Source of the DNA: Roseobacter sp. SK209-2-6 | Lineage (GTDB): Bacteria > Pseudomonadota > Alphaproteobacteria > Rhodobacterales > Rhodobacteraceae | Direction of reading: 5' to 3' | Assembly (NCBI RefSeq): GCF_000169455.1 | Contig: NZ_AAYC01000001.1 | Span: forward strand, 458,001-522,000 | DNA: 64,000 nucleotides | In this document: positions 18,121 to 31,907 of the stretch, one piece after another | Position numbering within the stretch: position 1 is the first letter of the stretch | How the letters are laid out: every line of letters begins with the position of its first letter | Notes under the pieces: generated by a model | Told to the model about the DNA's origin: nothing | Databases searched by the model: none | What the model saw: the letters and a program-made list of their open reading frames with translations, nothing else | Translations under genes and position numbers: made by a program

Positions 18121-18154
18121 CCCTCTGGCATCTGATATCTCAGATGTCAGAGGG
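18121..18154 (+). promoter_or_regulatory. 34-bp inverted repeat ahead of the TRAP operon, probable GntR operator
   Basis: CCCTCTGGCATCTGATA faces TCTCAGATGTCAGAGGG; 15 of 17 positions pair. Its core ATCTGATATCTCAGAT (18130-18145) matches 14 of 16 bases of a site at 27139-27154 beside the GntR gene. It ends 23 bases before the dctP ATG. No U-tract follows, so it is more likely an operator than a terminator. Confidence 0.75.
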
Positions 18155-18177
18155 AATCTGGTTCAAGGGAGGAAACC

Positions 18178-19176
18178 ATGTTTAGTAAACCCGCAATCGC
18201 GCTTGGTGCGGTTCTGTCGGCAGGCCTTGCACTCGCTGCATCGGCTGAAACAGTCATCAAAATAGGCCACGGTGCCGCTGAAACGTTCCACATGCACCGA
18301 GCGTTGCTGAAATTCGAGGAGTTGGTCGAGGCCGGTTCGGGCGGGGAAATCGATGTCCAGATCTTCCCGTCCTCCCAAATGGGGCCTGACCGTGAAATGA
18401 TCGAAGGCGTTCAGACTGGTGTTCTGGAGATGGCCATTCCGCCATCATCCTTCTTTGCGGGTTGGGATCCTGCATTCGCCGTCATCGAACTTCCTTACAT
18501 GTACGCCTCAAAGGATATTGCCTTTGACGTGCTCGACAGTGAAGCAGGTGATGGCATGCTCGCACGGGTCGAGGATCAGGGCCTGGTCGGGCTGGGCTGG
18601 CTGGAACTGGGGGTGCGCAATGTCACCAACAATATCCGCCCGATTACCTCTCCGGCGGACCTGGAAGGTATCAAGCTGAGAACAATGAAGGTCCCGGCTC
18701 ATGTGGCGACCTTCGAGACTCTCGGGGCCAACCCCACGCCTATGAATTTTGGCGAGGTATATTCCGCCCTTCAGCAGGGGGTGATTGACGGGCAGGAGAA
18801 TCCGCTGGCGATCATCACGTCGCAACGGTTCTACGAAGTTCAGAAATTCCTTTCCACAACGGGCCATGTTTTTGCCGTCTATATGCCGGTCGTTTCCAAG
18901 CCGTTCTTTGACAGCCTATCAGAAGAGCACCAGCAGCTGATCCGTGAATCCATGGCGGCTGCACGTGCTCACCAGGCAGAACTGGTTGCATCAGAAGATG
19001 CGGCACAGCTGGAGAAAATTCGGTCTGCAGGCGTCGAAGTCCTCGAGTTGACCGCCGAGCAGCGGCAGGCCTTTGCCGATCAGACCGAAAGCGTGCGTTT
19101 GCAGTACCGCGAGGAAGTTGGCGCCGGGAACTATGATGCCTGGGTTGCTGCGGTAAGTGCCGCAAGCGGCAACTGA
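18178..19176 (+). CDS. dctP: TRAP transporter solute-binding protein (DctP type)
   Basis: The protein has 332 residues with a signal peptide (residues 1-23, ending ALAASA before ETVIKIGHG). The mature part is a DctP-family binding protein: GHGAAETFHMHRALLKFEELV at the N-terminus, then GIKLRTMKVPAH, which holds the conserved Arg that grips a substrate carboxylate, and FGEVYSALQQGVIDGQENP, the family signature. It captures an organic acid in the periplasm and hands it to the DctQM permease. Gene context (sugar-acid kinase and aldolase) suggests a hexonate or deoxy-ketohexonate. A good GGGAGG ribosome site precedes it, and an intergenic hairpin follows. Confidence 0.92.
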   Translation: MFSKPAIALGAVLSAGLALAASAETVIKIGHGAAETFHMHRALLKFEELVEAGSGGEIDVQIFPSSQMGPDREMIEGVQTGVLEMAIPPSSFFAGWDPAFAVIELPYMYASKDIAFDVLDSEAGDGMLARVEDQGLVGLGWLELGVRNVTNNIRPITSPADLEGIKLRTMKVPAHVATFETLGANPTPMNFGEVYSALQQGVIDGQENPLAIITSQRFYEVQKFLSTTGHVFAVYMPVVSKPFFDSLSEEHQQLIRESMAAARAHQAELVASEDAAQLEKIRSAGVEVLELTAEQRQAFADQTESVRLQYREEVGAGNYDAWVAAVSAASGN

Positions 19177-19200
19177 TGGCCGCTTAGAACTGCCGTAGAC

Positions 19201-19229
19201 TGGTGCCCGCGTTGTCCACACGGGCACCA
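19201..19229 (+). promoter_or_regulatory. Intercistronic hairpin between dctP and dctQ
   Basis: A perfect 9-bp stem (TGGTGCCCG/CGGGCACCA) with an 11-nt loop lies 24 bases after dctP and 22 before dctQ, without a U-tract. Such hairpins after a binding-protein gene often protect the upstream mRNA from 3' decay, giving more binding protein than permease; that role is inferred here. Confidence 0.65.
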
Positions 19230-19251
19230 GCCGTTCCTTGGGAGGGGAAAC

Positions 19252-19737
19252 ATGTCGGGTTTGAAATGGCTGGATAAGAACGCGGAGAAGGTCTTCGCAA
19301 GCTTGCTTTTGGCCGCAATTGTGCTGCTGATCTCTGGCAACGTCTTTATGCGCTATATTATGAATGCCTCTCTTTCCTGGGGTGAGGAACTGACGCTTTG
19401 GCTCTTCGTCTGGTTTGTCTGGATCGGGGTCAGTTACGCTTTTCATACGGGTGATCACGTCCGCATCACCGTGCTGCGGGATGTGCTGAGCAAGCGCTCA
19501 CGCCTCATCGCAGACAGCATCATCGCCATCCTGGTGCTCGGGTTTCTGCTGGCACTGGCATATGAGTGCATCAAGCTGATCCGCATGCCCTTTATCACAA
19601 GCCAGACTTCGGTGGTTCTGGGGCTTCCCATCCCAATTCTCTATGCTTCGGCGCCGGTTGGAGCAGTCCTGTCAGCAATCCGCGTCATTCAGCATTTGTT
19701 TCGAACCTTGCGCCTGATAGCGCACAGCAAGGCATGA
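19252..19737 (+). CDS. dctQ: TRAP transporter small permease subunit
   Basis: The protein has 161 residues with four hydrophobic segments. The family pattern appears as SGNVFMRYIMNASLSWGEELTLWLFVWFVWIGVSYAF, where the WxEE motif and following aromatic helix are typical of DctQ. It pairs with the large permease in the inner membrane and is needed for sodium-driven uptake. GGAGGGG precedes the ATG. It is followed ten bases later by dctM, so the two are a coupled pair. Confidence 0.9.
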   Translation: MSGLKWLDKNAEKVFASLLLAAIVLLISGNVFMRYIMNASLSWGEELTLWLFVWFVWIGVSYAFHTGDHVRITVLRDVLSKRSRLIADSIIAILVLGFLLALAYECIKLIRMPFITSQTSVVLGLPIPILYASAPVGAVLSAIRVIQHLFRTLRLIAHSKA

Positions 19738-19747
19738 GGGGGACATC

Positions 19748-21031
19748 ATGCTCGCCACTACTCTTTTTCTGACGCTTTTTGCGCTTCTGCTGTTCAGTGT
19801 TCCGATCGGCATTTGCCTTGGTCTGGCTACGATGACCGTCATGGTTTTTGTCGACGGCACCCCGCCGATGGTTCTGCTGGCGCGATCGGTCGTGACAGGC
19901 GCAGATTCATTCCCGTTGATCGCAGTCCCCTTGTTCATTCTGGCCGGTGACCTGATGCAGCATGGCGGCATGTCCCGCCGTATCGTTGGCTTCGCCAATG
20001 CTCTTATCGGACATATTCGCGGCGGGCTTGCCTATGTGAATGTCTTGGCTTGCGTGTTCTTTGCGGCCATTTCCGGATCCTCACCTGCAACCGTCGCCGC
20101 CATCGGATCGAACATGATCCCGGAGATGGAAAAAGTTGGCTACACCCGGCGCTTCAGCGGCGCACTGACGGCCTCTTCCGGGATGATTGGCGTGATGATC
20201 CCGCCCAGCATCCCGTTCATCATCTATGGGGTTACCGCCGAGGTTTCGATTGGGAAGCTGTTTCTCGCTGGTGTCGTTCCCGGCATTCTCTTTGCTCTGA
20301 TGTTCATGCTGGTTGCGCGTATCCTGTTGCGCAACGACGTGATGGTGCAGGAGTCCACCACCACGTTTTCCGGTGCCGGTGTCTGGCAGAGTTTTCGGAG
20401 TTCGATTTGGGCACTGCTTGTTCCAGGCATCATCCTGGGCGGGATTTATACAGGCATCTTCACCCCCACGGAAGCAGGCGCCGTCGCCGTTGTCTATGCA
20501 GCACTCATTGGGATTTTTGTCTATCGCGACATCACCGTAAAAGACCTGCCTGAAATCCTTGCCGGCAGTGCCAGAACCAGCGGCACCATTCTGGTTCTGG
20601 TGGTCATGGCAACCGCATTTGGCAGGCTGATCACCCTAGCGCGCATCCCATCGGAGCTGGCAGCAGCGATCACCAGCCTGTCAGACAACCCGATCATGAT
20701 CCTGCTGCTGATCAATCTGCTGCTGCTGGTAATCGGCATGTTCATGGAAACGATTTCTTCGATCATCATAATGACGCCGATCCTGTTGCCGGTTGCGACT
20801 GCTCTGGGTGTCGACCCGATAGTCTTTGGCGTCATTCTGGCGGTCAATCTAGCCATCGGTTTCTGCACACCTCCCCTGGGCGTAAACCTGTTCGTGGCCA
20901 GCAGTATCTCGAAGATTTCCATCGAGCAGCTTAGCCGGGCCATCCTGCCCTTCTTTGCCGGCATGCTGATCCTGCTGATCCTGGTCACCTATGTACCGGC
21001 CATTTCGCTTGCACTGCCGTCGCTGTGGTAA
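19748..21031 (+). CDS. dctM: TRAP transporter large permease subunit
   Basis: The protein has 427 residues with about twelve membrane segments, the full length for DctM. Typical elements are FPLIAVPLFILAGDLM near residue 60, the AISGSSPATVAAIGS motif, GMIGVMIPPSIPFIIYG, and the repeat-related FMETISSIIIMTPILLPVA and NLAIGFCTPPLGVNLFV in the second half. It carries the sodium-coupled transport path for the acid delivered by DctP. It lies ten bases after dctQ and 31 bases before the FMN oxidase gene, so the four form one transcription unit. Confidence 0.94.
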   Translation: MLATTLFLTLFALLLFSVPIGICLGLATMTVMVFVDGTPPMVLLARSVVTGADSFPLIAVPLFILAGDLMQHGGMSRRIVGFANALIGHIRGGLAYVNVLACVFFAAISGSSPATVAAIGSNMIPEMEKVGYTRRFSGALTASSGMIGVMIPPSIPFIIYGVTAEVSIGKLFLAGVVPGILFALMFMLVARILLRNDVMVQESTTTFSGAGVWQSFRSSIWALLVPGIILGGIYTGIFTPTEAGAVAVVYAALIGIFVYRDITVKDLPEILAGSARTSGTILVLVVMATAFGRLITLARIPSELAAAITSLSDNPIMILLLINLLLLVIGMFMETISSIIIMTPILLPVATALGVDPIVFGVILAVNLAIGFCTPPLGVNLFVASSISKISIEQLSRAILPFFAGMLILLILVTYVPAISLALPSLW

Positions 21032-21062
21032 AACCTTCACTCAATAACATGGCGTACCGCTA

Positions 21063-22208
21063 ATGGACCTAGACCTGTCACACCCCTCAATCGAAGACCT
21101 GCGGCGGGCGGCGCAAAAGCGGATACCGAAATTCGCTTTCGAGTATCTCGACAGCGCAACCGGCCGTGAATTGGGGCTCAAGGTGAACCGTGACGCGCTT
21201 GATGCGGTCGGCTTCATGCCGAGCGTCCTATGTGGTCGGACAAAGGCCAATCTGCAAACAAATTTGCTTGGTCAGTGCTATGACCTGCCCTTCGGGATTG
21301 CACCGGTCGGCATGTCCGGCCTGATGTGGGCCGGCGCAGAGCGTATGCTGGCGCAGGCTGCTGTTGCGCACAACATACCGTTTTCGCTGTCCAGCGTGGC
21401 GGTAGCGTCACCGGAGGATGTTTCACCCTATATCGGTCAGAACGGATGGTTTCAGCACTACCCGGTGAATTCGGCCGACCTGCGCCGCAAGATGCTGCCC
21501 CGGATCAAGGCAGCCGGGTTTCACACGCTCATCATCACCGTCGATGTCCCGGAAGAAAGCAGGCGCGAGCGTCAGAGGCGGGCAAACCTGACAGTGCCGC
21601 CAAAAACCGACCTCAGGACGCTGACCGAAATGGCGGCAAGGCCGACCTGGTGCCTGGCACATCTGCGCGAAGGCATCATACCGCGCATGAGGTTCTTTGA
21701 CGACTATGTGCCGCAACGCGGCCGGGAAAGCTTCACCCATGCCGGTGCCCTCATTCGGGGTATCCCGGATTGGCGATACCTGCAGGAACTGCGCGGCGAA
21801 TGGGATGGGCATCTGATCGTCAAAGGGGTGCTGCGGCCAGAAGACGCTCAGCGCATGGTGGATCTTGGTGCAGATTGCATCTGGGTGTCTAACCATTCAG
21901 GCCGCCAATTCGAAGCCGGGCCAGCCGTCATCGATCAACTGCCGAAAATCCGCGAGGCCGTTGGACCGGACGTCCCGCTCATCTATGACTCCGGCATCGC
22001 CTGGGGGCTGGATATCATGCGGGCCCTGGCTAAGGGTGCGAATTTCGTTATGGTTGGCCGCGCGTTTCAGTATGCCGTCGCGGCATTCGGAGCCAAGGGC
22101 ATCGACCATCTCGTGCATGTACTGAAGGCGGACGTCGCTGCAAACATGAGCCAGCTGGGAGTTGAACAGCTGGGCCAACTGTCACAATACCTATTAAAGG
22201 ATAAGTGA
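21063..22208 (+). CDS. FMN-dependent alpha-hydroxy-acid oxidising enzyme
   Basis: The protein has 381 residues of the glycolate oxidase / L-lactate dehydrogenase barrel family. IVKGV supplies the conserved Lys, and SNHSGRQ holds the catalytic His and substrate Arg. In the FMN-phosphate loop the usual GGVRRG is replaced by SGIAWG, so the two Arg are absent, while VMVGRAFQYAVAAFG further on resembles a Rhizobiales/Rhodobacterales subfamily. It should oxidise an L-2-hydroxyacid to a 2-oxoacid, passing electrons to quinone or oxygen. It closes the TRAP operon, so the imported acid may be its substrate. The ribosome site is weak; a four-codon frame (21050-21064) overlaps the start. Confidence 0.87.
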   Translation: MDLDLSHPSIEDLRRAAQKRIPKFAFEYLDSATGRELGLKVNRDALDAVGFMPSVLCGRTKANLQTNLLGQCYDLPFGIAPVGMSGLMWAGAERMLAQAAVAHNIPFSLSSVAVASPEDVSPYIGQNGWFQHYPVNSADLRRKMLPRIKAAGFHTLIITVDVPEESRRERQRRANLTVPPKTDLRTLTEMAARPTWCLAHLREGIIPRMRFFDDYVPQRGRESFTHAGALIRGIPDWRYLQELRGEWDGHLIVKGVLRPEDAQRMVDLGADCIWVSNHSGRQFEAGPAVIDQLPKIREAVGPDVPLIYDSGIAWGLDIMRALAKGANFVMVGRAFQYAVAAFGAKGIDHLVHVLKADVAANMSQLGVEQLGQLSQYLLKDK

Positions 22209-22241
22209 CCCGGTCGCACGAAGGCCAGCGCTTTGAGCCGG

Positions 22242-22646
22242 TCAATCTGCAGACTGCTTAAGCAGACTTTCCACAATCAGATCTGCCGTTGAGCGCGAGC
22301 AGGCCATCGGCAGATCGTAAACGATTGCAAGACGCGTCAATGCTTTGACATCAACGTCATGCGGCATAGGGGAGAGCGGATCGACGAAGAAGATCAGAGC
22401 GTCAAGCCTCTCTTCGCAGATCAATGCGCCGATCTGCTGATCGCCGCCTAGCGGGCCGCTTTTCAAACAGGTGACATCCAACGCCGGGAAGGCTTTTTGA
22501 ATCCGCCCGCCGGTCGTGCCTGTTGACACGATACGAACTGCCGCCAGGCAGGGCTGATGACGCCCCACCCAGGCTACGAGATCATTTTTTTTGGCATCAT
22601 GCGCAACAAGCGCAATACAAAACCCGTCAGCGGATGAATTGCTCAA
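22242..22646 (-). CDS. mgsA: Methylglyoxal synthase
   Basis: The protein has 134 residues. [36 protein letters not shown] and [18 protein letters not shown] match MgsA, including the phosphate-binding GTTG, the catalytic Asp in GGDQQ and the HD pair. It turns dihydroxyacetone phosphate into methylglyoxal and phosphate, a bypass of lower glycolysis. The only possible start is a TTG at 22646, preceded by AGGAG nine bases upstream and overlapping the cupin gene by 20 bases. It ends the seven-gene operon, an unusual place for mgsA, which generally stands alone. Confidence 0.9.
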
Positions 22647-23142
22647 CGTAGTCTTCTCCTAGCCCGACTTCCGCAAAGTGTTTCCGGCAGAGATCAATCT
22701 TGGTGAAGACATCTTCGTAGCCGGTTACTTCGCCCCAAGGATCTACATAGCACATTACACCATTGACCTGGAAATAGGTGACCATCTCTTCGACATCGTC
22801 CGGTACGACAAGCGTGTGTGTTTCCCCCGGCGGCTCGTAGACATAGCCGCCCTCTTCGGCGACCCAGTCATGTTCGAGGTAGTGCCAACGCCCTTTCAGG
22901 ACAAAGCCGTGGACGGGTTGCGGATGACGATGCCGCGACAGCACCCCAGCTTTTTTGACCTTCAAGAGGTTCATCCAATAGCCTTGCGACCGGTTCAGGC
23001 AGAGCGGCCGGAACCAGACATTTTCTGCCTGCGGCACCCAGAGTTTTTCGTCTTCGCTCATGGCGTTGGGGATCACGATTTCTTCCTGCGCGTCCTTCGG
23101 GAAGGGCAATTGATAGGGCATGCGGCTCGTGTCTTCGGTCAT
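22627..23142 (-). CDS. Cupin protein, 2,4'-dihydroxyacetophenone dioxygenase family
   Basis: The protein has 171 residues with one cupin barrel. [43 protein letters not shown] shows both cupin motifs with metal ligands HxH, then E or H, and a distal His. The family is named after a ring-chain-cleaving dioxygenase but most members are uncharacterised; in a sugar-acid operon an isomerase or epimerase role is as likely as dioxygenation. The ATG at 23142 has AGGAGG upstream. It follows the SDR gene by 10 bases. Confidence 0.83.
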
Positions 23143-23152
23143 GTCTTCCTCC

Positions 23153-23854
23153 TCACATCGCGAGATAACCACCGTCAACCGGGTAAACCGATCCGGTGAC
23201 AAAGCTGGCATTTTCGCTTAGTAGCCACCGCACTAGCGCGCCGACTTCTTCGGGTTTCCCCCAACGTTTCATTGGGGTGCGCGCCATGATCCCCGCTGTC
23301 CGATCCGGGTCGTCGCGCAGGCCTTGGGTCATTTCCGTCTCGATCCATCCCGGGGCGATAGCGTTGACCCGGACGCCATTCTCGGCCCACTTGCCAGCCA
23401 GCGCCTTCGTCAACTGGGCGACCCCACCCTTTGAGGCGGAGTAAGCCGGGACCAATGGCCCGCCAAAGGAACTGAGCATAGAGGCTGTATTGACGATGGC
23501 CCCGCCTTTTTTCGCCAGTAAAGGATGAGCCGCAAGGCAACAGCGCATAGTGCCGGTCAGGTTCACATCCAAAACCTTAGCAAACACGTCAATGTCGTAT
23601 TCCCCACCACGCAGAAGAATGCCTGCACAGTTCACCAATGCGTCGAGACGCGACAAATCTCCAAAAACTGCATCAACAGAGTTCTGATCGGTGACATCGA
23701 GAAGCCGGAGCGTAATCCCTTTCTGGTTCTCGAAACCGTCCAGTTCAGGCTGGGACACGGATGCGGCGATGACGGACCAGCCTGCCTCGGCCAGAGCCCG
23801 TGCGACGCCTGCGCCAATACCCCCTGTGCCGCCAGTTACAAGGACCTGTTTCAA
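23153..23854 (-). CDS. SDR-family NAD(P)-dependent oxidoreductase
   Basis: The protein has 233 residues, a classical short-chain dehydrogenase: VTGGTGGIGAGVARALA (cofactor loop), VNCAGIL, the catalytic Ser in NTASML, and YSASKGG with the Tyr-Lys pair, then APGWIETEM and a C-terminal PVDGGYLA. It starts with TTG inside the stop of the aldolase gene (TTGA overlap), so translation is coupled. It probably oxidises or reduces a hydroxyl of the sugar acid. In alginate-type pathways an SDR makes 2-keto-3-deoxygluconate from an unsaturated uronate product, one possible role here. Confidence 0.88.
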   Translation of the reverse strand: MKQVLVTGGTGGIGAGVARALAEAGWSVIAASVSQPELDGFENQKGITLRLLDVTDQNSVDAVFGDLSRLDALVNCAGILLRGGEYDIDVFAKVLDVNLTGTMRCCLAAHPLLAKKGGAIVNTASMLSSFGGPLVPAYSASKGGVAQLTKALAGKWAENGVRVNAIAPGWIETEMTQGLRDDPDRTAGIMARTPMKRWGKPEEVGALVRWLLSENASFVTGSVYPVDGGYLAM

Positions 23855-24477
23855 TCCAGTTCCTCCCAGGCGCTGACGAAGGCGCGGGCGCGCCTAGCGA
23901 TATCATCCAGTGCATAGCTCGGTTTGAACAGTGCTGACCCAAGACCATACCCGTCCACACCCGCTGCGTGATACGGGGCCATCGTTTCGGGTGTGATCCC
24001 GCCTACCGCCGCCACGACAGCATTTTTTGGCAGCACGGCGCGCATGGCTGCGATGGCTGCCGGAGGCACCAGTTCCGCCGGAAAAAACTTGAGCACAGAG
24101 GCGCCGATATCCAGTGCCGCAAACGCCTCGGATGGGGTCATGACGCCCGGGCACCAATATAGCCCGCGGGAAACGGCCTTGCGCCCGACGTCAGGATTCA
24201 TGTTCGGCGACACGATGATCCGCCCACCCGCGTCAGCGACAGCCTCGACTTGATCCACTGTCAGAACGGTGCCTGCGCCGACAATGGCCGTCTGCCCGTG
24301 GTGCTGCGCGATAAATTCGATCGACGAGAGCGGTTCAGGAGAGTTCAGAGGAACCTCGATAATCCGAAAGCCAGTCTCGACAAGCGTGTCCGCTACGGGC
24401 AGAGCGTTCTCCGTCTCCAGCCCTCTCAGGATCGCAATCAGCGCATTCCGAGAGAGTGCGGTCGCGAGATCTATCAT
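23851..24477 (-). CDS. dgoA: 2-dehydro-3-deoxy-6-phosphogalactonate aldolase
   Basis: The protein has 208 residues, a KDPG/KDPGal aldolase barrel. IAILRGLE is the N-terminal family motif, VGAGTVLT follows, and VLKFFPAE holds the Schiff-base Lys (usually LKLFPAE); the dehydratase-water Glu sits in IIEVPLNSPE. It cleaves the phosphorylated deoxy-ketoacid to pyruvate and glyceraldehyde 3-phosphate. Pairing with DgoK supports the galactonate rather than the Entner-Doudoroff enzyme. It overlaps dgoK by four bases. Confidence 0.9.
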   Translation of the reverse strand: MIDLATALSRNALIAILRGLETENALPVADTLVETGFRIIEVPLNSPEPLSSIEFIAQHHGQTAIVGAGTVLTVDQVEAVADAGGRIIVSPNMNPDVGRKAVSRGLYWCPGVMTPSEAFAALDIGASVLKFFPAELVPPAAIAAMRAVLPKNAVVAAVGGITPETMAPYHAAGVDGYGLGSALFKPSYALDDIARRARAFVSAWEELD

Positions 24478-25394
24478 CCAACCACCCCCGCGGCCCGGGC
24501 AATATGGAAATGTCCTTTTGCAACAATGTCATCAGGCGCATGTCTGCTTTCGTAGCCAGCGGTATTAAGTGCAATTTCGTATCGCTCTGACAAATCGCTT
24601 CGTCCTACAATGGTGATTGGGCCAAGACCTTCGGCGTCAGCCGTTGCAGCAGCGACTTCGGTCCCGATCAGCAATCCTGACATGTAGTCCGCCGCCGCAG
24701 CATCTGGGATTTTCCCCATCAGAGGAAGTGTGCGGACATGAAAGAGGCCGTGAAGCAGGTTTGACTGCCCTTCGAGCCCCGCTTTTACACCCATCACGAA
24801 CGCCTCTTTGCTGAAGGCATTGTCTTTCATCAAGGTGCCAAGGATCGTGTGCCCTTTCAAAGCGGCAAAAACCTCGCCCGTCATATAGGTCGAGAAGTCC
24901 TTGATCTCTCCTTCCGCGACCTGAACCCACTTGCTGTGCGTTCCCGGCATCACAAATGTGCCGCCGCTCAAACCAAGCGAGGAGGCCCCGATAATCTGGG
25001 TCTCTTCACCACGCATAACGTCCGGCCCTCCTGTGTCCTCGGTTGAGGCGCCGGTGACAAAGTGGATGCGCGTGCCATTTGCCGCCTTATGCAGGACCAG
25101 AGAGCGAGCCAGATCACCCGCACTCAACGGCATTTCAGCATAGGGTGTTTCCACCCAGCCGTTCCGGCTGGTGATCATGCCAGATGCCATGACCGGAAGA
25201 TCAGTACTGGCAACCCAGGGAGCAATGAGACGGTCAAGGACCTCCTCAAAAGCATGGCCATCGATCTGCATGATGCCCTCGGAGGACGCCACACTGTCGA
25301 TCACCTCACCATCCGCAGCTATGAGAAAAGCACGGAGCGATGACGTCCCCCAGTCCACGCCGATCAGGGCGGGTTCAGATACGGCCGAATTCAT
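24474..25394 (-). CDS. dgoK: 2-dehydro-3-deoxygalactonokinase
   Basis: The protein has 306 residues. LIGVDWGTSSLRAFLI at the N-terminus is the phosphate-binding strand of the ASKHA fold as found in DgoK, followed by MASGMITSRNGWVETPY and MPGTHSKWVQV. It phosphorylates 2-keto-3-deoxygalactonate on C6 using ATP. It overlaps the RraA-like gene by 20 bases and the aldolase gene by four, so the kinase-aldolase step is tightly coupled. A galactonate dehydratase, the usual provider of its substrate, is not in the window. Confidence 0.9.
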   Translation of the reverse strand: MNSAVSEPALIGVDWGTSSLRAFLIAADGEVIDSVASSEGIMQIDGHAFEEVLDRLIAPWVASTDLPVMASGMITSRNGWVETPYAEMPLSAGDLARSLVLHKAANGTRIHFVTGASTEDTGGPDVMRGEETQIIGASSLGLSGGTFVMPGTHSKWVQVAEGEIKDFSTYMTGEVFAALKGHTILGTLMKDNAFSKEAFVMGVKAGLEGQSNLLHGLFHVRTLPLMGKIPDAAAADYMSGLLIGTEVAAATADAEGLGPITIVGRSDLSERYEIALNTAGYESRHAPDDIVAKGHFHIARAAGVVG

Positions 25395-26064
25395 TCAGCA
25401 GATCCTCTACGGTTTTGCCCTGAGCAACCCATTCGCGGGTCTTTTCTTCGCGGTCCGCCTGCTCCTGAGCCAGACGCACGGTTTCTTCGGCGATTTCCTG
25501 AGGAACCACCACGACGCCCATCAGGTCGGCAACAATGAAATCACCGGGGTTCACCACGACGCCACCACAGGCGATCGGCACATTGATCGACAGCTCTTCC
25601 TTGCGTTCGGAGAACATCGTGTGGGTGCCGCGCGGCGTGATTGCGCGAGTCCAGATCGGCCAGTTGATGTCTTCCAGCTCGTCCGTGTCGCGCCCGGTGC
25701 CATCGACAATCATGCCGCGGATGCCACGGTTCTTGGCCAGGCCACCCATCAGGCCGCCGCAGACAGAGGTTTGCTGATCCCCGCCCGCATCTACAACGAT
25801 CACATCGCCGGGCTGGGCCATTTCAAGCGCCTTCAAAGGATCTACGAGGTCGCCTTTTGACAGTTGCACTGTCACGGCCTGACCAGTCACTTTTGCGCGG
25901 AACGCCGGCTTGATGGCACTGTCCATGACACCGGTGCGGTATTGCACATCAGCGAAGATGGCGGCTGCGGAATAGGCCTCGAGCACCTTGTCGAACTTCT
26001 TCAGCAGCTCCGGGTTGCGCTCAAATTCGTTGAAGACCCTGAGGTCTGTGCTGACGTCTGGCAT
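25375..26064 (-). CDS. RraA-like / HMG aldolase family protein
   Basis: The protein has 229 residues. DVIVVDAGGDQQTSVCGGLMGGLAKNRGIRGMIVDGTGRD is the family core: GG then RG, with the Arg and Asp in DGxxRD that place pyruvate enolate and metal in 4-hydroxy-4-methyl-2-oxoglutarate aldolases. True RraA of gamma-proteobacteria inhibits RNase E, but many homologues in sugar and aromatic operons are aldolases or decarboxylases of 2-oxoacids. Context favours an aldolase here. AGGAGG precedes the ATG at 26064, and the gene is the second of seven in the operon. Confidence 0.82.
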   Translation of the reverse strand: MPDVSTDLRVFNEFERNPELLKKFDKVLEAYSAAAIFADVQYRTGVMDSAIKPAFRAKVTGQAVTVQLSKGDLVDPLKALEMAQPGDVIVVDAGGDQQTSVCGGLMGGLAKNRGIRGMIVDGTGRDTDELEDINWPIWTRAITPRGTHTMFSERKEELSINVPIACGGVVVNPGDFIVADLMGVVVVPQEIAEETVRLAQEQADREEKTREWVAQGKTVEDLLNEFGRI

Positions 26065-26077
26065 TTTGTGCCTCCTG

Positions 26078-27109
26078 TTATACGGTGGATAGGGACAACG
26101 CGTCGGCGTTGACGGTGTAATCTGGGTTTTGCCCTGTCAGGACCTTGGCCACCTGCGTGGCTGCTGTGACCCGGGCGGCGAGAATGGATTCTTCGGAGTA
26201 ATAGGCCGCATGCGGTGTCACGAGCACGTTGGGCAGCGTGAACAGCAGATTGTCATCCGGCGTCCAATTGGCGCGTTTGGCGGGTTCCTCTTCGGGATCG
26301 TCGAGGCCTGCCGCAGCAAGGTGCCCCTCGGTCAGCGCCCGGAACAGCGCCTTGTTGTCGACCGTGGGTCCACGCCCGGTGTTCACCAGGATGGCCCCCG
26401 GTTTCATTGCCGCGAATTCGGCATCGGACAGGAAGTGATGCGTGTCCGGAGTCATCGGCGCCTGCATCAGAATGTAATCGGACCGCGCCAGCAGCTCTGG
26501 CTTGCCCACAAGCTCAACACCAAGTTTCGCGGCGGCTTCGCCCGGCAGGAAAGGGTCATAAGCGATGACATTCACGCCAAAGGCCCGCGCGCGCGCTGCA
26601 ATGGCCTGGCCTATCTTGCCAAGCGAAACGACACCCATAGTGCGTCCGCGCAGGCGATGTACGGGTTGGCCGCTCTGCCATTGCCATAATCCTGCGTGGG
26701 TTGCGCGGTCATAGTCGGGCAGTTTGCGGGCAAGCGCCAGCCACAGAGCAATCGCGTGATCCGCGACTTCCTCGGTGCAGTAGTTCTGTACATTGGTGAC
26801 AAGGATGCCTTTGGCGGTTGCAGCGTTCACGTCAACGATATCAACACCGACGCCGTAGCGCGCGATCACTTCGCAGCGCTGCATCCGGGTGATCGTTTCG
26901 TGTCCGATCCTGGCATATTGATTCATCATAGCCGCGCAGCGCCGCGCGGCATCGAACAGATCCGTCTCCTTTTTTGCCTGCAAGGCGACGACTTCTGCTC
27001 CAGCGGCTTCCAGAATTTCGGTTTCGACACTCACATCGCCGAAATCAAAGTCCGTAATCACAACAAGCGGCCGGTCGCTGCGCGGGGTGAAACTGGCTGT
27101 TTTTAACAA
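26078..27109 (-). CDS. D-2-hydroxyacid dehydrogenase, CtBP/phosphoglycerate dehydrogenase-like
   Basis: The protein has 343 residues. The NAD loop reads GVVSLGKIGQAIA (usually GLGRIG), and the catalytic set is NTGRGPTVD (Arg), DDPEEEP (Glu) and VTPHAAYYSEES (His), the last phrase typical of the CtBP-like subgroup. It reduces a 2-oxoacid or oxidises a D-2-hydroxyacid. I place the start at a TTG (27109) six bases after AAAGGAGGGG; the longer frame to 27373 runs through the operators and into the divergent gntR gene. It is the first gene of the seven-gene operon. Confidence 0.86.
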   Translation of the reverse strand: MLKTASFTPRSDRPLVVITDFDFGDVSVETEILEAAGAEVVALQAKKETDLFDAARRCAAMMNQYARIGHETITRMQRCEVIARYGVGVDIVDVNAATAKGILVTNVQNYCTEEVADHAIALWLALARKLPDYDRATHAGLWQWQSGQPVHRLRGRTMGVVSLGKIGQAIAARARAFGVNVIAYDPFLPGEAAAKLGVELVGKPELLARSDYILMQAPMTPDTHHFLSDAEFAAMKPGAILVNTGRGPTVDNKALFRALTEGHLAAAGLDDPEEEPAKRANWTPDDNLLFTLPNVLVTPHAAYYSEESILAARVTAATQVAKVLTGQNPDYTVNADALSLSTV

Positions 27110-27138
27110 TGCGGCCCCTCCTTTGCCCGATAACTGAT

Positions 27139-27154
27139 ATCTGATATTCCAGAT
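27139..27154. promoter_or_regulatory. GntR operator-like site, intergenic site 1
   Basis: ATCTGATATTCCAGAT lies between the divergent dehydrogenase and gntR genes. It matches the core of the repeat ahead of the TRAP operon at 14 of 16 positions and is itself partly palindromic. Confidence 0.7.
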
Positions 27155-27169
27155 TGCAAGCCGTGGTAT

Positions 27170-27185
27170 ATCAGATATTCTGGAT
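27170..27185. promoter_or_regulatory. GntR operator-like site, intergenic site 2
   Basis: ATCAGATATTCTGGAT agrees with intergenic site 1 at 13 of 16 positions. The centre-to-centre distance is 31 bases, about three helical turns, which suits cooperative binding. It lies 29 bases before the gntR ATG. Confidence 0.65.
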
Positions 27186-27213
27186 GGTGCAACTTGTTTC
27201 GAGGTGATCACCC

Positions 27214-27882
27214 ATGGCTTTAGAACGACCAAAATCTCTTCGAGAGCTTGCCTTGGAGTATCTTCGCAAGCGAATTGTCGATGGTACCTTTCAGATGGGA
27301 CAGGTTTTGTCGGAGCGGAAAATTTCCGAAGAGCTTGGGGTGTCGAAATCTCCGGTGCGGGAAGCACTGGCACAATTGCGTGACGAAGGTTTGGTTCAAA
27401 TTGAACCCCAAAAAGGCGCGCGCGTGTTCACCCTTACAGTTGATGAGGTGATCCAGATCTGTGACTTCCGCCAGGTGATCGAATGCGCCTCCTTCGAGCT
27501 TGCACTGCAAAGAGACCCAGCCGGCCTGGCGGCAGATATTGACAAGATCGTCCTAAAGATGGCTGCCAAAAAGGACACAGGTGATGAAGATGCTTACATC
27601 GCGCTCGACAATGAGTTTCACCAGCTCATCTTTGAACATGCCGGAAATGACTATCTGACAGCCAGCTATACGCGTTACGTCGGCAAGATTTCAGCACTTC
27701 GCAAACTTCTGTCACAACTTCCAAAACACACGGACCTCTCATTTGATGAGCATAGCGCCATCGCGGAGGCTGTCCGCAAGGGCGACCTTATGGAGGTCAA
27801 AGCTTTGCTTGCGGAACACATTGACCGGACCCGGAAAGCTTATACCAAGGCAGCCGACTTGCTGGGCGCGCCTGTCGAGTGA
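27214..27882 (+). CDS. GntR-family (FCD) regulator of the sugar-acid cluster
   Basis: The protein has 222 residues: winged helix at residues 8-70 (LRKRIVDGTFQMGQVLSERKISEELGVSKSPVREALAQLRDEGLV) and a helical FCD domain at 80-215 whose NEFHQLIFEHAGN and later His residues should bind a metal and a carboxylate ligand. It diverges from the seven-gene operon, and both intergenic sites plus the repeat ahead of dctP share a motif, so it most likely represses both halves of the cluster and is released by the substrate or an intermediate. Confidence 0.9.
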   Translation: MALERPKSLRELALEYLRKRIVDGTFQMGQVLSERKISEELGVSKSPVREALAQLRDEGLVQIEPQKGARVFTLTVDEVIQICDFRQVIECASFELALQRDPAGLAADIDKIVLKMAAKKDTGDEDAYIALDNEFHQLIFEHAGNDYLTASYTRYVGKISALRKLLSQLPKHTDLSFDEHSAIAEAVRKGDLMEVKALLAEHIDRTRKAYTKAADLLGAPVE

Positions 27883-28155: not shown

Positions 28156-28692
28156 TTAAGCCGCAATGCCGCGCAGGGCAGCTTTTGCAACGATGTCGAA
28201 GATCGACCGGTCCTTCGAGGCGGAAGCAACGATCATACCACCCTCTAGGGCCGCTACGATCAGCGCTGCAGTTTCCCTTTCGTTTTCGACGCCGTGTCTG
28301 GAGAGCAGTGTTTCCAGCCATGCCTTGTTCATCCCAAAGAATGCCTTTGTCCGCGCGTTGATATTCTCTGACAGGCCAATGGCTTCTGCCCCCATCACTG
28401 CGCAGAGGCAGATGGACTCACCCAGCACCAGGGCCTTGGCATAAAGCCCGACAAACGCCTCCAGTGCAGATTGCAGGTTATCCGTGGGGATCTTTTCGAG
28501 CTCCGCCTTGAACCGGTCGGCATAGCGCGCAACCAGGGCCTCACCCAGGTCGGGTTTCGTTGGGAAGTGATAATGAACACTGGCGCTTTTGATTCCCACA
28601 TCTCCGGCCAAATCGCGGAAACTCATCTCTGCAAAGCCCGCACCGCGCACACGTTTCTCGGCGGCTTCAAGAATTTTTTCTTTCATTGTCAT
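28156..28692 (-). CDS. TetR-family repressor
   Basis: The protein has 178 residues. The N-terminal helix-turn-helix (KEKILEAAEKRVRGAGFAEMSFRDLAGDVGIKSASVHYHFPTKPDLG) is typical TetR, with a helical ligand domain after it. The start is taken at 28692 (MTMKEKIL); in-frame codons further upstream run across the operators. It diverges from a five-gene operon, and two 18-bp near-identical sites lie between, so it is very probably the local repressor. The inducer is unknown; the operon suggests a reactive carbonyl, amine or similar compound. Confidence 0.88.
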   Translation of the reverse strand: MTMKEKILEAAEKRVRGAGFAEMSFRDLAGDVGIKSASVHYHFPTKPDLGEALVARYADRFKAELEKIPTDNLQSALEAFVGLYAKALVLGESICLCAVMGAEAIGLSENINARTKAFFGMNKAWLETLLSRHGVENERETAALIVAALEGGMIVASASKDRSIFDIVAKAALRGIAA

Positions 28693-28711
28693 GGGGCTAA
28701 CTCGCATCTGC

Positions 28712-28729
28712 CTACTGATTGATAGATAG
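28712..28729. promoter_or_regulatory. TetR operator-like site O1
   Basis: CTACTGATTGATAGATAG matches the site at 28763-28780 in 15 of 18 positions. It ends three bases before the -35 element of the forward promoter and lies 20 bases from the tetR start, so it could also block tetR transcription. Confidence 0.72.
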
Positions 28730-28732
28730 CTG

Positions 28733-28761
28733 TTGACAGTTTTCAGGTCAATTCCCATTAT
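28733..28761 (+). promoter_or_regulatory. Sigma-70-type promoter of the DJ-1 operon
   Basis: TTGACA (28733-28738), a 17-base spacer and CATTAT (28756-28761) make a near-consensus promoter. The predicted start near 28768 lies inside operator O2. Confidence 0.7.
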
Positions 28762-28762
28762 T

Positions 28763-28780
28763 CTACCTATCGATAGATAG
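28763..28780. promoter_or_regulatory. TetR operator-like site O2
   Basis: CTACCTATCGATAGATAG is an 18-bp palindrome with 8 of 9 positions paired. It covers the expected transcription start of the DJ-1 operon, the classical place for a repressor. Confidence 0.78.
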
Positions 28781-28799
28781 ACGCAAAGGAACTCTGACA

Positions 28800-29501
28800 A
28801 TGACTACTGGAAACCAGCAAAAGCGCGTGCTGCTCATCATGTCCTCGGTGGATGAAATGGGCATCTCGGGTAAACAAACCGGCACTTGGTTCACAGAACT
28901 GGCGGCGCCCTATTACATCCTGACCGAAGCCGGGTATGAGGTTGTCTTTGCCTCGCCCGAGGGCGGCGCGGCTCCGATTGATCTGCTTTCAATGAAGGCC
29001 CCTTTCACAACCGAATACACCGAGCGCTTCTTCAACGACCCGGTGGCAATGTTCGCCGCTCAGAACACCCGCAAGCTTCGTGAGATCGACTATTCGACCT
29101 TTGATGCACTCTTCGTGCCTGGCGGCTATGGGCTGATCTGGGATCTGGCAAGCGACAGCTACACGATCAAGATGATCAAGGACTTTTACGAAAGCGGCCG
29201 CCCTGTTGCGATGGTTTGCCATGCGCCTGCCATCCTGCGCGACATCAAGCTCTCAAATGGCGAATACCTGGTGAACGGTGTCGATCTGACTGGCTTCAAG
29301 AACGAAGAGGACAGCGAAATCGAGCTTCTGCATCACCTCTTGTTCTCGCTTGAGGACGAGTTGAAAGGCCGGGGTGCCAATTACATCAGCAAGGCCAACT
29401 GGGAGGCGAATGTTGTTGAGGATGGCGCCTTGATGACCGGCCAAAGCCCTGCCTCCGCGCCACCGCTCGCCGAAGCCCTGAAAGCACGCTTGGCGGCCTA
29501 A
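28800..29501 (+). CDS. DJ-1/PfpI-family protein
   Basis: The protein has 233 residues. The DJ-1 fold shows LLIMSS, the Glu-containing loop FASPEGG, VPGGYGLIWDL and the nucleophile elbow AMVCHAPAIL with its reactive Cys. The Cys followed by His is the pattern of the Hsp31/glyoxalase III-like branch, whose members convert methylglyoxal to lactate or act as chaperones; others hydrate isonitriles. It is the first gene of the TetR-controlled operon, starting 20 bases after operator O2. A stress or detoxification role is likely, but the substrate is open. Confidence 0.85.
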   Translation: MTTGNQQKRVLLIMSSVDEMGISGKQTGTWFTELAAPYYILTEAGYEVVFASPEGGAAPIDLLSMKAPFTTEYTERFFNDPVAMFAAQNTRKLREIDYSTFDALFVPGGYGLIWDLASDSYTIKMIKDFYESGRPVAMVCHAPAILRDIKLSNGEYLVNGVDLTGFKNEEDSEIELLHHLLFSLEDELKGRGANYISKANWEANVVEDGALMTGQSPASAPPLAEALKARLAA

Positions 29502-29558
29502 TGAAAACCGCCGGGGTGGTTGCTCAAATTGCCCCGGCACCTCATACGGAGAGAGCCT

Positions 29559-30539
29559 ATGTCCACCGCATTGCAACCTGTCGACAGCGTCGAGATCCTT
29601 GTTCTGATCGACAATAAGACCGATGCTTTGTCGAGCCTGCCCGAGGGCTTCACCGATGAATGGGTGAATCTGCACAAAGCGGGGATGGAACAGATTTCCG
29701 GCGCAGGCCAGTGCTGCGCCAATCATGGACTGGCGTTGATTATTACCGCGCAGCGCGGCGGCACCAAGCATGTGATGCTCTTTGATGCGGGCCCGGTGGA
29801 TTTCGCCGTCGAATACAACGCCTCCCGCCTCGGTGCATCCTTTGGCGAGATCGAGGCCATCACGCTGTCGCATGGCCATTGGGACCATGCAGGAGGCATT
29901 CCGGCGGCCATCGATCTGATCCGCCAGGGCGGCCAAACTGGCGACCTGCCCGTGTATCTGCATCCCGGCATGTTCCGGAAGCGGGCCTTCCCTCTGTCCA
30001 CGGGCGAGTTGATCGAGATTCGCGAGATCGCCACGCCAGACGAGCTTTCGGCGCAGGGCGCGATGCCGGTGGTCACAGATCAGCCGCTAAGCGTTCTGGA
30101 TGACATGTTCTATATCTCCGGTGAAATCCCGCGCGTGACCTCCTACGAGGCCGGCTTTCCGGGACATGTTCAGCGCAACGCAGAAGACACCGGCTGGGAA
30201 GATGATCCTCTCCTGATGGACGAACGCTATGTCGCGGTGAATATCGCGGGCAAAGGGCTGGTAGTTTTTTCCGCCTGCTCGCATGCGGGCATCGTCAACG
30301 TGCTGCATGCGGCACGGCGGGACTTCCCCGGCGTACCAATCCATGCGCTGACCGGAGGGTTTCACCTGGCGGGCGGCAACGAGCGGATCATCGAAGACAC
30401 CGTCGCCGACTTCGAGCAGTTCAACATCGGCCTAATCCTGCCGGGGCATTGCACCGGATGGCGGGCGACCAACGCCCTCGAACGCGCCTATGGCGAGCGG
30501 GTGGTGCCCATCGCTGTCGGCATGAAGATCCCTCTTTGA
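29559..30539 (+). CDS. MBL-fold metallo-hydrolase
   Basis: The protein has 326 residues. LSHGHWDHAGG is the metal-binding HxHxDH motif; later FSACSHAGIVN and TGGFHLAG, then LPGHCTGW, supply further His/Asp ligands. The wording fits the COG1237-type branch of the metallo-beta-lactamase superfamily, whose few known members act on pterin phosphates or serve as hydrolases of lactones and esters. The ATG at 29559 has GGAGAG upstream. It follows the DJ-1 gene by 57 bases and precedes the cupin gene by 14. Confidence 0.85.
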   Translation: MSTALQPVDSVEILVLIDNKTDALSSLPEGFTDEWVNLHKAGMEQISGAGQCCANHGLALIITAQRGGTKHVMLFDAGPVDFAVEYNASRLGASFGEIEAITLSHGHWDHAGGIPAAIDLIRQGGQTGDLPVYLHPGMFRKRAFPLSTGELIEIREIATPDELSAQGAMPVVTDQPLSVLDDMFYISGEIPRVTSYEAGFPGHVQRNAEDTGWEDDPLLMDERYVAVNIAGKGLVVFSACSHAGIVNVLHAARRDFPGVPIHALTGGFHLAGGNERIIEDTVADFEQFNIGLILPGHCTGWRATNALERAYGERVVPIAVGMKIPL

Positions 30540-30553
30540 AGAAGGTAAGTGAC

Positions 30554-31228
30554 ATGGAACTCAACGCAAACTTTGATGAACGCGCTGTGGTGCATTCCGG
30601 GCAAGAGCCTTGGATCAGCTCGCCAATGAAGGGCGTGGACCGGCGGATGCTGGACCGGATCGGCGACGAGGTGGCACGCGCCACTACCATCGTGCGCTAT
30701 GCCCCGGGCAGCTCATTTTCGGCCCACACCCATACTGGGGGCGAGGAATTCCTGGTGCTTGACGGGGTTTTTCAGGACGAGCATGGGGACTTTCCGGCCG
30801 GAACCTATGTGCGCAACCCGCCCACGTCTTCGCACACACCAAGCGCGGCAGAGGGGGCAACGATTCTGGTAAAACTCTGGCAGTTCGACCCTGAGGACCG
30901 GAGGCAGGTTACAATCGACACCAAGGCGCAAAAGCCGCAGCGGGTATCGGAGGGCGTGGTGGAGATTCCGCTCTTTGAGGATGCGCGTGAGCGGGTCCGG
31001 ATCGAGATCTGGGAGGCGGGCCAAAGCGTCTCAGCAAGCCACAAAGGGTTCGAGGCCCTGGTGCTCGAAGGCAGTTTTACCGAAGGCGGCGAGAATTTTG
31101 TGAAAGAGTCATGGCTGCGACTGCCTGCGGGCATGGATTTGAAGGCGCAAGCGGGCCCTGAAGGCGCGCGTCTCTGGGTGAAATCCGGGCATCTGGCCGA
31201 ACCGCCGGTTGCCCCGGGTGCGGGGTAG
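30554..31228 (+). CDS. Double-cupin (ChrR-like) protein
   Basis: The protein has 224 residues with two cupin units. The first (SAHTHTGGEEFLVLDGVF, FPAGTYVRNPPTSSHTP) keeps the HxH, Glu and distal His ligands; the second (VSASHKGFEALVLEGSFTEGG) has lost most of them. It resembles the cupin half of ChrR anti-sigma factors, but no zinc-binding ASD domain or sigma factor gene is present. An enzymatic role, for example dioxygenation or epimerisation, is as likely as sensing. It overlaps nothing and is followed after four bases by the SDR gene. Confidence 0.8.
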   Translation: MELNANFDERAVVHSGQEPWISSPMKGVDRRMLDRIGDEVARATTIVRYAPGSSFSAHTHTGGEEFLVLDGVFQDEHGDFPAGTYVRNPPTSSHTPSAAEGATILVKLWQFDPEDRRQVTIDTKAQKPQRVSEGVVEIPLFEDARERVRIEIWEAGQSVSASHKGFEALVLEGSFTEGGENFVKESWLRLPAGMDLKAQAGPEGARLWVKSGHLAEPPVAPGAG

Positions 31229-31232
31229 GATC

Positions 31233-31907
31233 ATGTCAAAACCTCTTGCGATCGTGGCCGGTGCCGGTCCGGGCCTTGGGCAAACCGTGGTCTCGTCATT
31301 TGGCCAGAACGGGTACACCACTATTGGCCTGAACCGGACTTTGCCCAATGCCGCAGCTTCCACGCTGGCCCTGGACCTGACCAGTCAGAGCCAGACAATG
31401 ACTAGGCTGCGTGAACTGTTTTGCACCCATGGCGTACCCGAGCTGGTGGTTCACAATACCGCAAAGCTGGTCATTTCCCCCTTCGAGAACACAAGTATCG
31501 AGGAATTCGAGGAGACCTGGCGTGCGATGGTGTTATCCGCCGTTAATCTTGCCAAAGTTGTCATGCCTGCAATGGCCAAAGCCGGGGGCGGAACCTTCAT
31601 CATTTCAGGAGCCACTGCCAGCTTGCGCGGCGGAAAAAACTTCTCAGCATTCGCTTCGGCCAAAGCTGGCTTGCGGGCCCTGGCCCAGTCACTGGCCCGG
31701 GAATACGGTCCGAAGGGCGTGCATGTCATACATGTCATTCTTGACGGGATCGTGGACACTGAAACCAGTCGTGCGATGCACGGTCTGGACGCATCGCGCA
31801 TGTTAAAGCCAGCGGACCTTGCAAGCATCTATCTTGCGCTGGCCAAACAACCCAAATCCACATGGACACATGAATTGGATCTTAGGCCCATGGGGGAGCC
31901 ATTCTGA
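31233..31907 (+). CDS. SDR-like protein lacking the catalytic tyrosine
   Basis: The protein has 224 residues with an SDR fold. The cofactor loop reads AGAGPGLGQTV, and the Ser region is FIISGATAS, but the usual Tyr-x-x-x-Lys is Phe-Ala-Ser-Ala-Lys (in FSAFASAKAGLRALAQSLARE). I recall other SDR-like families with the same Phe, so this is a family trait rather than a sequencing error. Its reaction may differ from simple dehydrogenation. TAGGA precedes the ATG. The stop overlaps the start of the next gene (TGATG). Confidence 0.8.
   Translation: MSKPLAIVAGAGPGLGQTVVSSFGQNGYTTIGLNRTLPNAAASTLALDLTSQSQTMTRLRELFCTHGVPELVVHNTAKLVISPFENTSIEEFEETWRAMVLSAVNLAKVVMPAMAKAGGGTFIISGATASLRGGKNFSAFASAKAGLRALAQSLAREYGPKGVHVIHVILDGIVDTETSRAMHGLDASRMLKPADLASIYLALAKQPKSTWTHELDLRPMGEPF

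Follow-up and report, generated by a model that had tools for sequence, protein, structure and literature searches.

The stretch analysed here, referred to as the window, comprises 64,000 nucleotides of Roseobacter sp. SK209-2-6 (contig NZ_AAYC01000001.1, positions 458,001 to 522,000, forward strand). Between its positions 18,121 and 27,882 lies a putative sugar-acid locus of 12 genes (Table 1). The plus-strand operon (18178-22208) encodes a tripartite ATP-independent periplasmic (TRAP) transporter, dctPQM, followed by a flavin mononucleotide (FMN)-dependent 2-hydroxyacid oxidase. Convergent with it, the minus-strand operon (27109-22242) encodes a CtBP-like dehydrogenase (CtBP), an RraA-like enzyme (RraA), 2-dehydro-3-deoxygalactonokinase (DGOK, the 2-keto-3-deoxygalactonate or KDGal kinase), 2-keto-3-deoxy-6-phosphogalactonate (KDPGal) aldolase, a short-chain dehydrogenase (SDR), a cupin and methylglyoxal synthase, while the GntR/FCD-family regulator gene is divergent from CtBP. 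All 12 genes were checked by profile search against Pfam/NCBIfam-type models, and every gene named in the initial annotation, which had been made from the letters alone, was recovered where it had been placed. Methylglyoxal synthase, well above the cut-off of one model, falls just under that of a second (TIGR00160, 145 bits against 146.9). With the starts used here, successive minus-strand genes from CtBP to methylglyoxal synthase are separated by 13, -20, -4, -4, -20 and -20 bases. Judged from the sequence, the TTG at 27109 (343 amino acids), which follows AAAGGAGGGG, is the probable start of CtBP, in place of the GTG at 27373.

Table 1. Genes and predicted operators of the locus, with CtBP remnants in three related loci (L numbers).
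Feature	Position	Strand	Evidence
Operator-like palindrome ATCTGATATCTCAGAT, upstream of dctP	18130..18145	+	0 mismatches to ATCTGATATNYCAGAT; longer inverted repeat 18121-18154
dctP, TRAP solute-binding protein	18178..19176	+	PF03480, 301 bits; nearest solved chain 4p47
dctQ, TRAP small permease	19252..19737	+	PF04290, 111 bits
dctM, TRAP large permease	19748..21031	+	PF06808, 420 bits
FMN-dependent 2-hydroxyacid oxidase/dehydrogenase	21063..22208	+	PF01070 (FMN_dh), 385 bits; putative 2S-acid oxidation
Methylglyoxal synthase	22242..22646	-	PRK05234, 177.6 bits (cut-off 84)
Cupin_7 protein	22627..23172 (longer open reading frame to 23211)	-	PF12973, 73.6 bits
SDR	23153..23854	-	SDR, 198.7 bits; best NCBIfam model KduD, far under cut-off
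KDPGal aldolase	23851..24477	-	PRK09140, 272.7 bits (cut-off 207)
DGOK	24474..25394	-	PF05035, 312 bits
RraA-like metal-dependent lyase-fold enzyme	25375..26064	-	PF03737, 142 bits; G104-X20-R125-D126-X2-E129
CtBP-like D-2-hydroxyacid dehydrogenase	26078..27109	-	PF02826 (2-Hacid_dh_C), 184 bits; putative 2R-acid oxidation
Operator-like palindrome ATCTGATATTCCAGAT, between CtBP and gntR	27139..27154	+	0 mismatches to ATCTGATATNYCAGAT
Second, overlapping operator-like palindrome ATATCAGATATTCTGG	27161..27185	.	3 mismatches; also present in relatives
GntR/FCD-family regulator	27214..27882	+	PF00392 and PF07729
CtBP C-terminal remnants	L095 7651-7857; L096 9776-9982; L093 3578-3784		69 codons, 83-88% identical

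A 16-base palindrome, ATCTGATATNYCAGAT, occurs in two perfect copies in the window, at 18130 and 27139, one before each operon; the longer repeat around the first copy begins at position 18121, the very first base of the stretch singled out in the initial annotation. Monosequence shuffles gave zero or one site at up to two mismatches. In the 1,249,731 bases scanned (27% of the genome, window included) no site beyond these two copies had fewer than two mismatches, and seven had exactly two. A site at 11122 with two mismatches was taken as a chance match, as it lies inside the coding open reading frame 10243-11439. The earlier proposal of a regulon is thus borne out by one predicted operator that precedes both operons and is rare elsewhere in the scanned part of the genome.

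Six aligned RraA orthologues served as the query for relatives' loci; of 117 pattern matches, 95 passed confirmation, and the top 80 were used (1.45 Mb), 14 of them Ruegeria records and 21 shorter than 18 kb, with RraA present by construction. Within these loci 171 of 174 operator sites with two mismatches or fewer fall within 350 bases 5' of cluster genes (GntR, SMP-30, dctP, ATP-binding cassette (ABC) transporter, CtBP and a few others). Testable loci have such a site 5' of dctP in 40 of 43 cases, 5' of SMP-30 in 46 of 52 and 5' of GntR in 52 of 60; it also stands before CtBP in 12 of the 15 loci that lack VOC. The operator is not universal, the loci without a site including Pantoea, Halomonas and several rhizobial ones.

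CtBP is found in 73 of the 80 loci, DGOK in 65, the aldolase in 61, a VOC gene in 57, an SMP-30 gene in 53 (all with VOC), the SDR in 43, dctP in 43, the cupin in 42, FMN oxidase in 35, methylglyoxal synthase in 27, a LarA-like gene in 9 and a Pantoea-type MR_MLE gene in 3. DGOK accompanies RraA in 65 of 79 loci, KDPGal aldolase is linked to DGOK in 61 of 65 and the SDR accompanies 41 of the 42 cupins. Two loci (L103, L112) hold only the TRAP genes, CtBP, RraA, DGOK and aldolase (plus GntR). The fullest roseobacter version runs from GntR through SMP-30 lactonase, a sugar ABC transporter, SDR and a VOC/TIGR03645 protein to CtBP, then through RraA, DGOK, aldolase, SDR, cupin and methylglyoxal synthase to FMN oxidase, dctMQP and a second GntR gene; the window version is without its ABC-lactonase-VOC part. 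One Ruegeria has a second sugar ABC operon behind the first GntR gene, with a protein related to uronate dehydrogenases. The bacteria with this gene set are mostly marine; loci also occur in Pantoea, Entomohabitans, Kaistia, Halomonas and Neorhizobium, and alpha- and gammaproteobacteria alike retain the CtBP/RraA core. Counted free of the bias of RraA anchoring, RraA at 82% identity or more is present in 7 of 198 family genomes, and FMN oxidase at 84% or more in three, all among those seven. The gene set is more than a chance association, since its order is conserved in many of the 80 loci, its minus-strand genes overlap and the palindrome is common to both operons. The Marinovum algicola cluster (L060) is borne on plasmid pMaD2 with several transposase genes around it, and RraA homologues also occur on plasmids in Pantoea, Neorhizobium, Bradyrhizobium and Caballeronia. 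At L178 (12117-12840, G007:C43) the DGOK gene is split into two overlapping open segments (47% and 52%) beside an intact RraA at a contig end, through either gene breakage or a sequencing error.

The position directly behind dctM is occupied by FMN oxidase in 31 of the 43 TRAP loci, by a LarA-like nickel-pincer isomerase in 6 and by neither in 6. Across all 80 loci FMN oxidase and the LarA-like gene never occur together, a lack of overlap with a probability of 7.6e-5 if loci are treated as independent, which relatives are not; on the dctM tree at least three changes separate the two states. The LarA-like protein belongs to NCBIfam group 22 of nickel-pincer isomerases (517 bits for the Marinovum protein, NF052515 cut-off 400), and at L100 the genes for LarB, LarC and LarE adjoin it, a set of LarA-system genes seen only in relatives, not in the window. 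Inversion at C2 of 2-hydroxy acids, with gluconate as one example, is the reaction of characterised LarA homologues according to the accessible portions of PMC7583248 and PMC11770544, in which group 22 is not mentioned. No orthologue of the FMN oxidase was found in the nine LarA genomes, where the best match is 52%; the paralogues of about 50% in three of them represent a common family protein found in 101 of the 198 family genomes.

CtBP itself is kept in all nine LarA loci. At three others (L093, L095 and L096) only the 69-70 codons of its C-terminal end are left, at 81-88% identity and directly before RraA; L095 and L096 show an intact RraA and an FMN oxidase, and L093 is a 4.7 kb contig, too short to show one. 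Other CtBP relatives in these genomes are about 40% identical or less, apart from short pieces of up to 45%. Stubs of CtBP beside FMN oxidase, together with CtBP in every LarA locus, are the pattern to be expected of an FMN enzyme that can take over from CtBP and a LarA that cannot. The most economical interpretation has the FMN enzyme starting from the 2S acid and CtBP from the 2R acid, each yielding the same 2-keto acid, with LarA dependent on CtBP to arrive there. We infer that FMN oxidase and CtBP are a pair of C2-redox enzymes, so that the seemingly extra genes are not a random set, and we rate the redox convergence of both C2 epimers on one 2-keto acid as fairly probable. The same pair also occurs in another setting, without RraA, at L177 (3717-5967, G072:C5), where a CtBP-like gene (36%) stands directly before FMN oxidase (63%).

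In the pathway that we prefer, both C2 epimers of the acid would enter through the TRAP transporter; oxidation of the 2S epimer by the FMN enzyme and of the 2R epimer by the CtBP-like NAD enzyme would give one common 2-keto acid, and C2 oxidation would stand in for the dehydration step. The 2-keto acid would then pass through RraA and the KDGal kinase/aldolase pair, with RraA acting at the same 2-keto-acid stage either as a parallel pyruvate aldolase or by trimming that acid for the kinase. Relatives would use a LarA-type epimerase in place of the FMN enzyme to turn 2S into 2R for CtBP, and their ABC/SDR/SMP-30 branch would feed a sugar in as its aldonate. As a whole, a self-contained GntR/FCD regulon for uptake and catabolism of a sugar-derived 2-hydroxy acid by C2 oxidation is our best explanation, put forward tentatively and rated a little short of even; the identity of the intermediate as a 2-keto-3-deoxy acid is a looser suggestion still. 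The gene set appears to be better described as a C2-oxidising variant of the De Ley-Doudoroff route. A literature search, in which subscription journals were sparsely covered, found no published description of this gene cluster.

The RraA protein is the most conserved here (79-97% in the six-sequence alignment). Aligned to 3noj, it keeps G104, R125, D126 and E129 as G-X20-R-D-X2-E, and G is invariant at the first position of the motif among the 86 sequences compared. G-X20-R-D-X2-E/D was reportedly described in 2014 as one of two catalytic motifs of such enzymes, the other being D-X20-R-D. Most RraA homologues carry one of two motifs and are probably class II pyruvate aldolases, according to the accessible part of PMC5065237. 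The RraA-family enzyme FlDet is a dehydratase/decarboxylase of 2-keto-3-deoxyglucarate, inactive on 2-keto-3-deoxygluconate and its 6-phosphate, in what is accessible of PMC8563752. Family membership would support chemistry on 2-keto acids without pointing to one reaction. A structure prediction from six sequences was too poor for use (mean predicted local distance difference test score 50.7). A bolder proposal, which we think rather unlikely, is that the RraA-fold enzyme supplies the KDGal kinase with its substrate through an undescribed step on a 2-keto sugar acid (dehydration, trimming or an epimerising retro-aldol reaction) and replaces the enolase- or IlvD-type hexonate dehydratases in a widespread pathway, both C2 epimers entering via the FMN oxidase or the nickel-pincer epimerase.

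RraA might instead be the missing dehydratase itself: CtBP and the FMN enzyme (or LarA) would set the C2 configuration of an ordinary hexonate, which RraA would convert to KDGal for DGOK and KDPGal aldolase, in gene order. The conservation of RraA, its overlap with DGOK and its company with that gene in most loci are in keeping with this, as are the activity of FlDet and the presence in Notoacmeibacter of the cluster without a recognised alternative dehydratase. Other pairings of RraA with a kinase point the same way: a distant RraA (27.6%) lies near another DGOK at L162, and on Caballeronia plasmid p3 (L064, 18796-20648) a sugar kinase, a second RraA-family gene and a royal-jelly-family (lactonase-like) gene stand side by side. 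However, LarA would then make CtBP unnecessary, yet CtBP persists in every LarA locus and has been lost in FMN loci, where this scheme needs it; moreover, the substrate of FlDet is a 2-keto acid, not an aldonate. We regard it as unlikely.

Among the 12 window genes the profile search found no MR_MLE, ILVD_EDD or Aldedh domain, and 75 of the 80 related loci (21 of the 80, as noted, being short) have no linked MR_MLE or IlvD homologue; the five that do are L133, L135 and L137, beside the core, and L124 and L142, further off. The lower half of the De Ley-Doudoroff route without a hexonate dehydratase, as first described for this locus, therefore holds at the level of linkage: DGOK and KDPGal aldolase are present and no dehydratase domain is linked. 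Whether the dehydratase might be encoded elsewhere, named in the initial annotation as part of what would overturn its view, received a divided answer. The Roseobacter genome has only two ILVD_EDD matches, read as the biosynthetic IlvD and as Edd (beside KDPG aldolase), and five MR_MLE matches, the best scoring 233.6 bits as galactonate dehydratase against a cut-off of 311. On the other hand, an IlvD-type candidate dehydratase that lies beside another DGOK has a counterpart of 60-84% identity in 29 of 40 cluster genomes; in these 29 a dehydratase may be encoded elsewhere, and their number speaks against a general lack of dehydratases.

This bears on an ordinary galactonate-type regulon, with its dehydratase elsewhere and the extra genes serving minor substrates. 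Besides the IlvD-type candidates, some MR_MLE-family match is present in 39 of the 40 genomes, and of 14 genomes with RraA but no DGOK at the locus, 13 have DGOK elsewhere, a weak point, as DGOK matches turn up in 147 of the 198 family genomes in any case; at ten such places KDPGal aldolase lies beside DGOK in six and a dehydratase candidate in three or four. Against this, the galactonate-dehydratase cut-off is exceeded in only 3 of 40 genomes, and G214, G242 and G246 have only IlvD-family matches of 37% or less. One of these, Notoacmeibacter marinus (L091/G246), has the full cluster and no NF010624 match at E<=0.001, its IlvD-family proteins being only distant (32-36%). Dispensable extras would also fail to explain a CtBP/RraA core kept across two proteobacterial classes, and an ordinary galactonate regulon seems improbable to us, on a par with RraA as the dehydratase. 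Less likely again is a C2 oxidation to a 2-ketoaldonate (or a branched acid such as 2-ketoapionate) that RraA splits or rearranges, with CtBP perhaps acting on released hydroxypyruvate and DGOK/aldolase shifted to another phosphorylatable keto acid: CtBP does resemble phosphoglycerate dehydrogenases and glyoxylate/hydroxypyruvate reductases, CtBP-RraA occurs without DGOK at L118, L126 and L139, and in a comparison with five relatives DGOK is less conserved (47-73%) than RraA (82-97%), but the KDPGal aldolase, above its family cut-off and so consistently linked to DGOK, favours a 2-keto-3-deoxy-6-phospho intermediate.

Several points weigh against the C2-oxidation pathway that we prefer. An acid that enters as a 3-deoxy compound would leave RraA redundant beside the kinase and aldolase, and we know of no abundant natural 3-deoxyaldonate. 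The model assigns no role to the SDR, the cupin or methylglyoxal synthase. The swap between FMN oxidase and LarA rests on few independent events, one of the CtBP-stub genomes is a 1.9 Mb assembly, so that absence there counts for little, and the conservation of RraA is partly built in, the 80 loci having been found with it. The IlvD-type candidates in 29 of 40 genomes count on the same side. In Pantoea, Entomohabitans and Halomonas (3 of the 80 loci), finally, an enolase-superfamily enzyme stands beside the CtBP-RraA-DGOK-aldolase set, for which the model gives no explanation; the nearest solved relatives of the Pantoea enzyme are 4ggb and 5olc, a galactarolactone cycloisomerase and a 3,6-anhydro-D-galactonate cycloisomerase, respectively, as given in the accessible part of PMC5698469.

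The likeliest substrate class would be a 3-deoxyaldonate or a similar 2-hydroxy sugar acid, in agreement with the unusual sugar acid first suggested. Its proposed origin in algal polysaccharides found no such backing: no lyase, sulfatase or glycoside hydrolase was noticed among the 12 genes, and loci also occur in Pantoea, Entomohabitans, Kaistia, Halomonas and Neorhizobium. The sole algal-polysaccharide link found was the cycloisomerase-like enzyme of the gammaproteobacterial variants, outside the window. Other clues were followed and set aside. Solved relatives of the TRAP-binding protein, presumably entries with pantoate, erythronate and mannonate as ligands, would point to a ligand of the sugar-acid type but led no further. 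Relatives of the sugar-branch ABC-binding protein were generic (ribose, allose, galactofuranose). The VOC/TIGR03645 gene lies in some plasmids beside LysR, DJ-1-like, flavin-oxidoreductase and SRPBCC genes and in others looked at does not; these neighbours hint at reactive-carbonyl chemistry without fixing the substrate.

Behind the regulon, closely spaced plus-strand genes at 28156-32992 encode TetR, DJ-1/PfpI-like, metallo-beta-lactamase-like, Cupin_7 (ChrR-like), SDR and flavin amine-oxidase proteins; they look like a separate operon, which we take to resemble sigma-E/ChrR-type singlet-oxygen genes. At 35372-38806 a 1144-amino-acid protein of the 2-oxoacid:ferredoxin oxidoreductase type, with POR and DUF6537 domains, is encoded between a GCV_T-type protein and an FAD-linked oxidase.

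If the preferred pathway is correct, bacteria can reach the KDGal and KDPGal ends by C2 oxidation, and searches for dehydratases would miss the route. The presence of the cluster in many marine roseobacters makes it probable that the substrate is an organic acid that is common and has been overlooked, and the clean operator offers a handle for finding the inducer. The cluster also gives context for the uncharacterised LarA group 22, this RraA branch and the TIGR03645 glyoxalase-like family.

Compared with known systems, the locus shares with the De Ley-Doudoroff D-galactonate pathway a KDGal kinase and a KDPGal aldolase, here adjacent and overlapping, but has no linked galactonate dehydratase and carries the C2-redox pair and RraA instead. 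The remaining comparisons draw on the accessible portions of the papers cited. The Zobellia 3,6-anhydro-D-galactose pathway dauABCD (PMC5698469) likewise ends in KDGal, KDGal kinase and KDPGal aldolase, and gammaproteobacterial variants of the present cluster carry a homologue of its cycloisomerase 5olc, whereas the 12 window genes have neither the Aldedh nor the MR_MLE domain of its aldehyde dehydrogenase and cycloisomerase. The L-gluconate lgn pathway of Paracoccus 43P (PMC12632266) also places a redox epimerisation before KDGal kinase and KDPGal aldolase, but in that pathway the epimerisation is at C5 and LgnE dehydrates D-idonate, while the redox enzymes here are of the C2 type; the L-glucose/L-gluconate lgn cluster (LgnE, LgnH/LgnI) was set aside as a match because it needs a dehydratase, and no dehydratase-family domain is linked here, LgnE being judged by description, not sequence. 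With HMG/CHA aldolase (PMC5065237) and FlDet (PMC8563752), RraA shares the fold and the metal- and pyruvate-binding motif residues, but is linked to KDGal kinase and not to an alpha-ketoglutarate-semialdehyde dehydrogenase or an aromatic-pathway partner. The sulfofucose pathway (PMC12421959) was rejected as a match, as it needs a PF13378 dehydratase and is without the kinase; its sulfolactate racemisation uses other enzymes, another substrate and another downstream route, but is alike in that two C2 dehydrogenases of opposite stereochemistry lead to one 2-keto acid.

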